NCBI RefSeq assembly: GCF_900182555.1
Contig: NZ_FXTH01000012.1
Span: 1-64,000 of the forward strand
Source of the DNA: Fodinibius sediminis
GTDB taxonomy: Bacteria > Bacteroidota > Rhodothermia > Balneolales > Balneolaceae
DNA: 64,000 nucleotides
Direction: 5' to 3'
Shown: one piece after another, positions 53,887-55,360 of the stretch
Layout of the letters: each line of letters begins with the position of its first letter
Position numbering within the stretch: the first letter of the stretch is position 1
Program-made: the position numbers and the translations under genes
Notes under the pieces: model-generated
What the model saw: only the letters and a program-made list of their open reading frames with translations
Databases searched by the model: none
Told to the model about the DNA's origin: nothing

Positions 53887-54027
53887 AAATTCCCTTCTTT
53901 TCTATATTCTTGTAATGTAGTTAATCAATCCCCCGTAGAACACATTCCCGACAGGCATTTCAATTGCTCAATCTATTTATCCCATCACTGAGGTGCAAAT
54001 CCTTTGAAAGATTTATGGTGAGAACCA

Positions 54028-54129
54028 TCAGCGAACCAATGTTTCCAGCCGCAGCTCCACTTCCACCGACGTGGAGCCGGTATAGTACTGATCCCTTGTC
54101 TTACTATAAATAATGTAGGTGTAAAACAT
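54028..54129 (-). pseudogene. truncated GIY-YIG nuclease gene (copy 1 of the array)
   Basis: 33 residues only: the GIY-YIG start MFYTYIIYSKTRDQYYTGST matches the intact copies exactly, then the frame runs off the homology at about 54046 and stops. The remaining two-thirds of the domain are lost. It is the downstream-most element of the tandem array. Confidence 0.85.
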
Positions 54130-54139
54130 GCCCCAATAT

Positions 54140-54170
54140 AAAAAGCCCCTGCAGGCTTCTGCAAGGGCTT
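54140..54170 (-). terminator. terminator hairpin, array copy 1
   Basis: Twelve-base stem AAGCCCTTGCAG / CTGCAGGGGCTT (one G-T pair) with a four-base loop, ending in a T run on the minus strand. It stands between the tRNA-like remnant and the truncated nuclease gene. Confidence 0.8.
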
Positions 54171-54178
54171 GTATTGTG

Positions 54179-54265
54179 AGCGGGAAACCGGATTTCCCGA
54201 AGGGTCGGGAGCACCCCCAACCTTGGTCCCGAACCATCGGGATGCTCTACCGCTGAGTTATCCCT
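54179..54265 (-). repeat. tRNA-Gly-like remnant with two palindromes
   Basis: The 5' end (acceptor/D arm) and the 3' end (acceptor) match the intact tRNA-Gly closely. The anticodon 5' half is replaced by TCCCGATGGTTCGGGA, and the T arm by a segment with TCCCGACCCTTCGGGA. The cloverleaf is destroyed, so this is not a working tRNA gene. The 5' part also holds the stop codon of GIY-YIG copy 2. Confidence 0.8.
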
Positions 54266-54524
54266 CAATTTCATTTTCCGGAGATGCTATCAGCCGTTCA
54301 ATAAAAGCACGACTTTTCTGGCGCTTGACGGCATACTCCCACTTCAGGGCCTCCGACTTCTCTGAAAAGGAGCGGTAGTATTTCAGCTCCCACGGGATAC
54401 CGGCCTTCGTAGATCGTGTCCAGCCCTCATTATGACGTTTCAGCCGCAGCTCCACTTCCACCGACGTGGAGCCGGTATAGTACTGATCTCTTGTCTTACT
54501 GTAAATGATGTAGGTGTAAAACAT
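54258..54524 (-). CDS. GIY-YIG nuclease family protein (copy 2)
   Basis: 88 aa single-domain GIY-YIG nuclease of the UPF0213/YhbQ type. The name motif is YTYIIYSKTRDQYYTGST (residues 3-20, Y-I-I and Y-T-G), and Arg27 (LRLKRHNEG) and Glu in KWEYAVKRQKSR agree with the catalytic Arg and Glu. It would nick or cleave DNA. The stop TAA lies inside a tRNA-like sequence at 54262-54265. An upstream in-frame ATG at 54632 would read through the terminator and tRNA-like 3' half (124 aa), so the start at 54522-54524 was chosen. Confidence 0.8.
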   Translation of the reverse strand: MFYTYIIYSKTRDQYYTGSTSVEVELRLKRHNEGWTRSTKAGIPWELKYYRSFSEKSEALKWEYAVKRQKSRAFIERLIASPENEIEG

Positions 54525-54534
54525 GCCCCAATAT

Positions 54535-54565
54535 AAAAAGCCCCTGCAGGCTTCTGCAAGGGCTT
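54535..54565 (-). terminator. terminator hairpin, array copy 2
   Basis: Same stem and loop as at 54140-54170, 395 bases further on, preceding GIY-YIG copy 2. Confidence 0.8.
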
Positions 54566-54573
54566 GTACTGTG

Positions 54574-54660
54574 AGCGGGAAACCGGATTTCCCGAAGGGT
54601 CGGGAGCACCCCCAATCTTGGTCCCGAACCATCGGGATGCTCTACCGCTGAGTTATCCCT
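54574..54660 (-). repeat. tRNA-Gly-like remnant with two palindromes (second copy)
   Basis: Same structure as the remnant at 54179-54265, with very few base differences. Its 5' part contains the stop of GIY-YIG copy 3. Two hairpins with the identical TCCCGA/TCGGGA stem replace the anticodon and T arms. Confidence 0.8.
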
Positions 54661-54919
54661 CAATTTCATTTTCCGGAGATGCTATCAGCCGTTCAATAAA
54701 AGCACGACTTTTCTGGCGCTTGACGGCATACTCCCACTTCAGGGCCTCCGACTTCTCTGAAAAGGAGCGGTAGTATTTCAGCTCCCACGGGATACCGGCC
54801 TTCGTAGATCGTGTCCAGCCCTCATTATGACGTTTCAGCCGCAGCTCCACTTCCACCGACGTGGAGCCGGTATAGTACTGATCTCTTGTCTTACTGTAAA
54901 TGATGTAGGTGTAAAACAT
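54653..54919 (-). CDS. GIY-YIG nuclease family protein (copy 3)
   Basis: 88 aa, apparently identical in protein sequence to copy 2, with the same catalytic Tyr, Arg and Glu. It lies 50 bases past the 3' end of the intact tRNA-Gly and directly behind a terminator, so its transcription either passes that hairpin or begins within the short spacer. This copy is the one next to the functional tRNA gene and so probably the source of the duplication. Confidence 0.85.
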   Translation of the reverse strand: MFYTYIIYSKTRDQYYTGSTSVEVELRLKRHNEGWTRSTKAGIPWELKYYRSFSEKSEALKWEYAVKRQKSRAFIERLIASPENEIEG

Positions 54920-54929
54920 GCCCCAATAT

Positions 54930-54960
54930 AAAAAGCCCCTGCAGGCTTCTGCAAGGGCTT
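54930..54960 (-). terminator. terminator hairpin downstream of tRNA-Gly
   Basis: Stem AAGCCCTTGCAG / CTGCAGGGGCTT and T run, placed 9 bases after the tRNA-Gly 3' end. It is the original from which the copies at 54140 and 54535 derive. Confidence 0.85.
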
Positions 54961-54968
54961 GTACTGTG

Positions 54969-55040
54969 AGCGGGAAACCGGATTCGAACCGGCGACCCCA
55001 ACCTTGGCAAGGTTGTGCTCTACCACTGAGCTATTCCCGC
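54969..55040 (-). tRNA. tRNA-Gly (anticodon GCC)
   Basis: Complete cloverleaf: acceptor GCGGGAA with TTCCCGC, D arm GCTC..GAGC, anticodon stem CAACC/GGTTG with loop TTGCCAA, T arm GCCGG with TTCGAAT and CCGGT. 72 bases plus no encoded CCA. The discriminator base is T. It is the only intact member of the array. Confidence 0.96.
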
Positions 55041-55250
55041 TTAATGAAACAATCAATAAATCAATTTTTCAGTTGGCCGTCCCGATTTGGAGACCCAACC
55101 TTGGTCCCGAACCATCGGGATGCTCTACCACTGAGCTATTCCCGCTTAATGAAACAATCAATAAATCAATTTTTCAGTTGGCCGTCCCGATTTGAAGACC
55201 CAACCTTGGTCCCGAACCATCGGGATGCTCTACCACTGAGCTATTCCCGC
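55041..55250 (-). repeat. two 105-bp tandem units with tRNA-Gly 5'-half remnants
   Basis: Two consecutive units (55041-55145 and 55146-55250) each begin, on the minus strand, with the first 25 bases of the tRNA-Gly gene (acceptor and D arm) and then TCCCGATGGTTCGGGA, CCAAGGTTGGGTC and a spacer GGCCAACTG...CATTAA. They differ in one base or so. They have no anticodon arm, no T arm and no 3' acceptor, so they are not tRNA genes. Confidence 0.85.
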
Positions 55251-55360
55251 TTTTCAAAGAGTCCCAAATATAAGGGCTTCATCCTATATATATCAACTCT
55301 AATTTTTAAAAAATTGCCAAAACCCTAATGTACTGTCTGCAGGCAGCTCCATCTCCCAGC

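Follow-up and report, generated by a model that had tools for sequence, protein, structure and literature searches.

A small chromosomal GIY-YIG nuclease gene accompanied by intact and broken tRNA genes in Fodinibius sediminis and other Bacteroidota

The first 64,000 nucleotides of contig NZ_FXTH01000012.1 of Fodinibius sediminis, a member of the Balneolaceae (RefSeq assembly GCF_900182555.1, forward strand; here called the window), contain an array in which a single intact tRNA-Gly(GCC) gene lies among broken copies of itself and copies of a small gene encoding a GIY-YIG nuclease. At most of the loci where relatives of this gene were examined, its neighbors were one intact copy and further, broken copies of a single host RNA gene. 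We consider it probable that the gene is a one-gene selfish element, encoding a nuclease similar to UPF0213 and SLX1 proteins, that lives in tRNA genes, breaks them, and keeps an intact replacement.

All parts of the array lie on the minus strand of the window and are described in that direction. The array is preceded by a presumed promoter, CTTATATTTGGGACTCTTTGAAAA (55251-55280), which by eye resembles the sequence directly before the tRNA gene in three congeners (CTTATATTTGGAACTGTTTGAAAA in G016, CTTATATTGGACTCGCTTCAAAA in G015 and G010). Two 105-bp units follow (55146-55250 and 55041-55145, 99% identical), each composed of tRNA-Gly nucleotides 1 to 25, a palindrome replacing the 5' strand of the anticodon arm, and a spacer; the palindrome, TCCCGATGGTTCGGGA, occupies the anticodon position at 55210-55225 in the first unit and at 55105-55120 in the second. 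Next come the intact tRNA-Gly(GCC) (54968-55040), which is the sole full-length match in the genome, a terminator-like hairpin, GCCCTTGCAG/CTGCAGGGGC with a U run (54929-54958, as read from the sequence), and the first nuclease gene (54653-54919), encoding 88 amino acids. A tRNA-like 3' copy (54573-54654) begins within the stop codon of this open reading frame (ORF) and carries palindromes in the anticodon arm (54622-54637) and the T arm (54590-54605). The second nuclease gene (54258-54524), a second tRNA-like 3' copy (54178-54259, with palindromes at 54227-54242 and 54195-54210), and a truncated third nuclease copy (54025-54129; codons 1 to 35 with one stop, 83% identity) complete the array.

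The preliminary description of this DNA had reported an intact tRNA-Gly(GCC) embedded in 395-bp and 105-bp units, and this was borne out. ARAGORN and Rfam (72.2 bits) called one intact tRNA-Gly(GCC), and Tandem Repeats Finder recovered a 395-bp period over 54041-54984 (2.4 copies, 98% matches) and a 105-bp period over 55016-55252 (2.3 copies, 99% matches). The two full nuclease copies, described earlier as seemingly identical in protein sequence beside a truncated third, proved identical in DNA as well (267/267 bases). The stop codons had been placed inside the next tRNA-like piece, and reading the sequence confirmed it: in both intact ORFs the stop is TGA, and its last two bases are nucleotides 1 and 2 of the tRNA-like copy that follows. 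The outermost 5' piece sits, by eye, at the position where the tRNA starts in congeners having no upstream pieces (G010, G015, and G016); with this as the presumed ancestral start, the intact tRNA is located 210 bp farther downstream. A hairpin comparable to the terminator of the window followed the tRNA, again by eye, in 11 of 12 printed loci with an intact tRNA (the exception being L048). The window genome held no further copies of the nuclease gene (protein query, E 0.01; profile, E 1e-6), and Rfam, at gathering scores, detected no intron families in the window or in eight related loci. A single ORF, that of the GIY-YIG nuclease, fits into the 395-bp unit, which contains no integrase; wider flanks were not searched for integrases.

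Tandem copies were not peculiar to this assembly. Two or more nuclease copies or fragments occurred in 29 of 111 loci, and because tandem copies recurred in the one-contig genomes G209, G242, and G257 and in other lineages, an assembly error confined to the window genome would be insufficient to explain them; an assembly artefact was thereby ruled out. Nuclease arrays with a regular period of about 320 to 370 bp were seen at L217 (in the one-contig genome G242), L218 (G256), and L211 and L229 (both G142).

Relatives of the nuclease were found in 63 of the 92 genomes of the window's family (E 1e-4) and, by profile search (E 1e-6), in 127 of 198 Bacteroidota genomes drawn, a draw that includes 26 of that family. 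To 150 loci we applied one rule, which looked for a same-strand tRNA at most 700 bp upstream or 300 bp downstream of the gene, failing that for a tRNA piece at BLAST E 1e-4, and failing that for an RNase P motif. By this rule 119 loci lay beside an intact same-strand tRNA and 19 beside tRNA pieces (138/150 together), 5 lay in an RNase P RNA gene, and 7 had no such neighbor; antisense tRNAs in range numbered zero. The same rule applied to 118 control strands yielded no intact tRNA, one piece, and 117 strands with nothing. The loci comprised the 29 top family hits, 60 lower family hits taken in rank order among the matches listed (second copies within already sampled arrays were skipped), 21 named records, and 40 phylum hits from 35 genomes outside the window's family, which were high-ranking hits rather than a random draw; L002, L003, and L033 to L035 were dropped as duplicates, the last three repeating L010, L011, and L015. 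The controls were both strands of 59 loci (17 palindrome, 12 gyrA, and 30 RNase P loci, a few of them overlapping); in one, L072, a tRNA-Trp lies inside the test interval itself and is uncounted by the rule. Random placement of the gene was ruled out by the control strands, and a search elsewhere for GIY-YIG genes adjoining tRNA genes, with stops in tRNA-like sequence, which the preliminary description had proposed as a check on the tie to tRNA genes, was positive; the tie stands. Host tRNAs belonged to at least a dozen species, including Gly, Asp, Val, Ala, Pro, several Ser, Leu, Met, Asn, Lys, and Arg. Named records with relatives came from Fodinibius, Aliifodinibius, Flavobacterium, and metagenome bins of Cloacimonadota, Ignavibacteria, and others, bins that may hold foreign contigs.

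Breakage of the tRNA gene accompanied the nuclease. The clearest comparison was a family census of the tRNA-Gly(GCC) locus, in which tRNA pieces were present at 26 of 29 loci with the gene, whereas 3 of 50 loci without it had them (Fisher P = 2e-14), so that tRNA breakage and the nuclease gene go together. In this census 12 of the 92 genomes had no match, G053 and G084 were dropped for want of an ARAGORN call, G035 contributed two loci, G009 counted as having the gene on the strength of a remnant, some other genomes had second partial matches that were left out, and some contigs end near the tRNA. Across host tRNAs, a piece of the same tRNA lay at most 300 bp behind the ORF in 52 of 85 loci with an intact tRNA, an upstream piece was present in 36, and one or the other in 67, compared with 0.008 piece matches per locus in shuffled sequence. 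Short one-gene units recurred across the printed loci, and their junctions fell at several tRNA positions.

The ends of the ORF are also bound up with the tRNA. In 20 of these 85 loci the stop codon lay inside a tRNA piece, and in 14 of those it was the conserved UAG at tRNA nucleotides 8 to 10. Some loci showed the reverse order, with a 5' tRNA piece, the ORF, and then the intact tRNA, the first 10 to 24 nucleotides of which encode the last amino acids of the nuclease and its stop. The stop lay inside an intact tRNA in five loci, given here on the strand of the ORF: L220 (tRNA-Ala, 1740-1814), L227 (Arg, 1740-1814), L211 (Arg, 1736-1810), L194 (Ser, 1743-1830), and L203 (Pro, 290-365). The contig of L203 begins 49 bp before the ORF, so a 5' piece cannot be judged there. 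RNase P processing of such an overlapping intact tRNA would be expected to strip the stop from the nuclease mRNA.

For the most part, a protein clade stays with a single host RNA. Host labels mapped onto a tree of 123 proteins required 22 changes, against a minimum of 15 and a shuffled mean of 80.8, and none of 200 shuffles was as low; the 22 changes count 7 unlabelled rows as a class of their own, and 18 changes remain without those rows. Array copies were entered as separate rows, and a hand-made table covering 21 loci provided labels in cases without an intact tRNA in range. Clades with Gly, Ala, Pro(ggg), and Asn hosts were clean or nearly so. The relatives at L114 (889-1149) and L125 (889-1140) form a small clade of the same proteins for which no tRNA link was found.

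At the tRNA-Gly(GCC) locus of the genus, the gene is present in some species and not in others at one orthologous site, as are free-standing homing endonucleases. Each of 12 congeners had one full-length match to the tRNA; where flanks were viewed, purA or cupin sequence lay upstream. The nuclease was intact at that locus in G000, G013, G014, G016, and G017, present as a remnant in G009 (E 3e-7), and undetected in the other six, and tRNA pieces were confined to the five congeners with an intact gene. G012, which by eye had been read as holding a decayed remnant, found no support from tblastn at 0.01 and was counted as undetected; by eye G011 may have a decayed 5' unit, though none was recovered by BLAST. 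The full-length tRNA-Gly(GCC) sequences of the genus (L140 to L151) differ from that of the window at up to 19% of positions, and their alleles do not all follow the gyrA tree. The window genome and G011 share the tRNA letter for letter, and the gyrA clade joins both with G016, the tRNA of which equals that of the more distant G013. This pattern is suggestive of horizontal transfer. In the tree of the Gly clade, the window gene falls outside its genus mates, but a single clade of the genus is not rejected by the approximately unbiased test (P = 0.134).

The broken tRNA copies share a further property. Each tRNA-like piece of the window array contains a perfect palindrome of the form TCCCGA-N4-TCGGGA, six in all, which takes the place of the 5' strand and loop of the anticodon arm; the 3' copies have the same replacement in the T arm as well. 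Across 41 loci we recorded 66 distinct interruptions of tRNA relics, with midpoints in the anticodon arm (37), the T arm (19), the D arm (5), or a span from anticodon to T arm (5); since the midpoint bins span nearly the whole tRNA, these classes alone show concentration, not exclusion. Exact borders recurred, namely Gly nucleotides 24 or 26 to 33 and 46 or 49 to 56, Asp 13 to 19 and 32 to 44, and Ser between 36 and 37. Perfect arms of at least 6 bp were present in 47 of the 66; same-letter shuffles equal the arm length seen in 15% of cases on average, so little can be concluded from the shorter palindromes. The arm sequence varies from clade to clade (TCCCGA, TCCCGC, TCCGCC, TCACGCG, and others) yet remains self-complementary. 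In one case, L129 (G078), a relative not beside a tRNA has a different palindrome, CCAGCACTTTACTCGGAAAGTGCTG, on both sides.

Such palindromes also occur apart from tRNA genes. In the 198 Bacteroidota genomes, the pattern TCCCGAN{3,6}TCGGGA occurred 1754 times and a reversed control pattern 86 times; the palindrome count tracked the nuclease gene count (rho 0.50), and the control pattern did not (rho 0.01), a correlation that is partly built in because the arrays themselves contain palindromes (6 of the 23 in the window genome). Within families, palindrome counts differed by nuclease presence, with none of 2000 permutations giving as large a difference. Six genomes without a detected gene had at least 10 palindromes, and seven with at least three genes had none or one. 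Of the 17 palindromes of the window genome outside the array, 9 lie, by eye, in the setting of one or the other of two further repeats; a tRNA is present at 1 of the 17 loci. At L057 to L060, L063, L065, and L079 and at L076 and L077, in the same genome, TCCCGA palindromes are embedded in dispersed repeats of two further kinds, where by eye they may occupy the loops of larger hairpins. At L072 (375-532, C25 of the window genome) a TCCCGA palindrome lies about 70 bp from a tRNA-Trp with no nuclease gene, and it may be an old relic.

A side branch of the family inhabits a different RNA gene. In five family genomes the P3 loop of the RNase P RNA gene contains the nuclease ORF (L098, L099, L109, L118, and L120, from G004, G001, G028, G003, and G033, respectively), an assignment made by Rfam for the first four and by position and motif for L120. 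The ORF is flanked in L098, L109, and L118 by inverted repeats of 19, 17, and 24 bp, which differ between genomes and stay complementary. An unoccupied RNase P RNA gene (L261) has the same helix closed by a TTAT loop.

The protein encoded at these loci is little more than a catalytic domain. PF01541 matched residues 1 to 72 of the 88-residue protein (E 4.7e-15; 56.1 bits against a cutoff of 22.6), and the predicted structure is a bare GIY-YIG domain with a mean predicted local distance difference test (pLDDT) score of 91.3. The Tyr, Tyr-x-Gly, Arg, and Glu positions typical of the GIY-YIG superfamily were conserved: in 28 chosen sequences G18 and E63 were invariant and Y5, Y16, and R27 at least 90% conserved; Y5, Y16, R27, and E63 are presumably the catalytic residues. 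The nearest profiles were those of the UPF0213 protein 1zg2 (E 3.4e-15) and SLX1 (E 1.7e-7), and the best fold matches were again 1zg2 (UPF0213 protein BH0048; E 5e-4) and SLX1; no NCBIfam model matched at E 0.001. SLX1 is longer, works with SLX4, and has a second, defining zinc-finger domain, which is absent here, as is any separate DNA-binding region of the type found in the phage nuclease SegB. The ratio of nonsynonymous to synonymous substitution rates was 0.12 and 0.19 in the two closest pairs, and ranged from 0.12 to 0.32 in the 5 of 253 pairs that were unsaturated.

By analogy with SegB, we propose that this chromosomal family cuts the tRNA genes of its own bacterial host and promotes tandem amplification of tRNA and nuclease. 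The nuclease would cut a tRNA gene, and the relics point to the D, anticodon, and T arms; repair from a copy bearing the element would then install a unit made up of a complete tRNA copy, a terminator, and the nuclease gene. The resident tRNA would survive as two pieces, the 5' one at its former promoter and the 3' one downstream of the ORF, with the complete copy keeping the cell supplied. Recutting and unequal recombination may give rise to tandem arrays, and the hairpin palindromes may both disable the relic copies and abolish sites where a cut would be likely. The intact copy does not always occupy the same end of the unit; in some lineages the ORF precedes and overlaps the intact tRNA. 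The preliminary description had suggested that the nuclease drives its own amplification at tRNA genes, and this has become likelier in light of the census and of the SegB precedent (PMC13096335); the cutting itself is a step that we infer.

Several observations weigh against this proposal. No cleavage, transfer, or copy number change was observed, and the intact tRNA adjoining the gene looks cuttable too, leaving its sparing unexplained. A bare domain of 80 to 90 residues likewise leaves site specificity unexplained. No relatives were found in phage or plasmid collections at E 1e-5 with one 88-residue query, or in IMG/VR with two single-protein queries, searches that could miss distant relatives, so no vehicle is known. 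Seven of the 150 loci fail the linkage rule (L114, L122, L125, L129, L130, L202, and L217), weak tRNA pieces being visible nonetheless in L122, L130, L202, and L217, and 18 of 85 loci with an intact tRNA lack tRNA pieces both upstream and downstream. Hosts are mixed in the clades with Met, Ser, Leu, and Lys tRNAs, and clades locked to one host would also be expected from long vertical inheritance at a fixed locus. Nor does the tree of the Gly clade establish horizontal transfer, given the outcome of the approximately unbiased test.

The main rival is a host nuclease specific for structure, like UPF0213 and SLX1 proteins, for which the palindromes would be dispersed hairpin or cruciform substrates of its own or nonautonomous partners akin to REP sequences; they would land in the hairpin loops of structured genes, with tRNA fragments as by-products. 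We regard this as unlikely. In its favor, the nearest solved relatives are UPF0213 1zg2 and SLX1, the palindromes far outnumber the control pattern, follow nuclease gene counts across genomes, and differ within families by gene presence, most relic interruptions have perfect arms of at least 6 bp, and the RNase P genes sit in a P3 loop, three of them between inverted repeats. Against it stand the part of the correlation contributed by the arrays, the gene-free genomes rich in palindromes and the gene-rich genomes nearly lacking them, the clades that use other palindromes, and the frequency with which shuffled sequence matches the observed arm length. A useful host gene, merely expressed from tRNA promoters and duplicated by ordinary slippage between repeats, is less credible still. 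Purifying selection in the few measurable pairs, the orthologous position in one genus, and long retention beside the same tRNA would suit such a gene, but its patchy presence, decayed copy, and absence from close relatives would not, nor would its association with rnpB and no fewer than a dozen tRNA species, the tie between tRNA breakage and the gene, or the various loci where it precedes the intact tRNA.

Two further explanations seem to us very improbable. Under one, the relics bearing hairpins act as RNAs, as decoys or an antitoxin to the nuclease; their arms are paired hairpins that vary between clades yet remain complementary, and their position would allow transcription together with the tRNA. 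However, the relics are incomplete in different ways and were missing from the same 18 of 85 loci, and GIY-YIG domains are known as DNA nucleases. Under the other, the tRNA gene is simply an integration hot spot and the nuclease is cargo or debris. Phages and genomic islands do commonly integrate at tRNA genes, and one end of the tRNA is duplicated by the insertion, but a 395-bp unit with room for the nuclease ORF alone, junctions at several tRNA positions, and the recurrence of short one-gene units across loci are poorly accommodated by that explanation.

The selfish element that we favor can be taken a step further, to a claim that we hold more tentatively and think somewhat doubtful as a whole: that it is a natural home-and-rescue drive, in which a minimal chromosomal nuclease traveling with a complete tRNA breaks essential tRNA genes, with a side branch in RNase P RNA, and survives by supplying a working replacement. 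The nuclease gene would then end in the tRNA in such a way that its stop is the conserved U8-A9-G10, processing would cut the mRNA before the stop and limit the enzyme where the ORF overlaps the intact tRNA, and the hairpin palindromes in the relics would mark old cut sites. If this is true, essential tRNA genes across Bacteroidota, and perhaps some other phyla, are inhabited by a selfish nuclease that puts its own copy in place of the host's gene, which would parallel in nature, and in a very small format of one domain and about 400 bp, a drive strategy that has been engineered. It would also account for many short "GIY-YIG family protein" annotations and the tRNA fragments adjoining them, and for part of the palindromic repeats of these genomes. 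The arrangement bears on the evolution of tRNA genes and on protein genes that end inside functional tRNAs.

Among known systems, UPF0213 proteins (PDB 1zg2 and 1ywl) and SLX1 are the nearest to the window protein by profile and fold, and no description of either as a tRNA gene element appeared among the papers listed in the literature searches. Phages and islands that integrate into tRNA genes duplicate part of the tRNA and keep one functional copy, and in this they resemble the window case; the repeated unit described here differs in holding a single nuclease gene and no integrase and, at some loci, in duplicating the tRNA's 5' part. The REP/RAYT system consists of very small mobile palindromic repeats with a Y1 transposase and is similar in that short palindromes are scattered through the genome in numbers that track a gene of nuclease type, whereas the palindromes studied here sit in tRNA relics. 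Among the papers listed by searches of PubMed Central, at the level of titles and the beginnings of abstracts, a scope outside which most subscription papers and bioRxiv fall, we found no account of chromosomal GIY-YIG genes in bacterial tRNA genes or RNase P RNA, or of such tRNA relics. The phage SegB case and the GIY-YIG superfamily are already known, and the chromosomal family, the tRNA relics, and the RNase P branch are those for which no description was found.

The closest parallels in behavior are SegB and engineered gene drives. SegB is a phage GIY-YIG nuclease that cuts inside tRNA genes and has a motif RAWTSGAAC, the complement of which is, by our reading, the tRNA T-loop consensus, and it is required for tandem amplification of tRNA-Tyr together with segB (PMC13096335). 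Its free-standing gene in the tRNA cluster of T-even phages (PMC13096335 and PMC2988022) resembles the window family in lying beside tRNA genes and in forming tandem units of tRNA and nuclease. SegB is phage borne and has 221 residues, with a region beyond the catalytic domain, whereas the window family is chromosomal and 80 to 90 residues long; hhalign aligned T4 SegB with the window protein over the catalytic domain alone, the first 71 of the 221 residues, with a probability of 54%. The tRNA link of SegB is reported to favor no particular isotypes (PMC13096335), unlike the window family, whose clades mostly kept to one tRNA, and a complete tRNA copy as part of the proposed unit is a feature added to the SegB scheme. 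Home-and-rescue gene drives (PMC7968924 and other reports) share with the proposed element the strategy of destroying an essential gene and providing a functional substitute; those drives were engineered in insects (PMC7968924), whereas the arrangement in the window is natural and its action as a drive would follow from the proposal made here.

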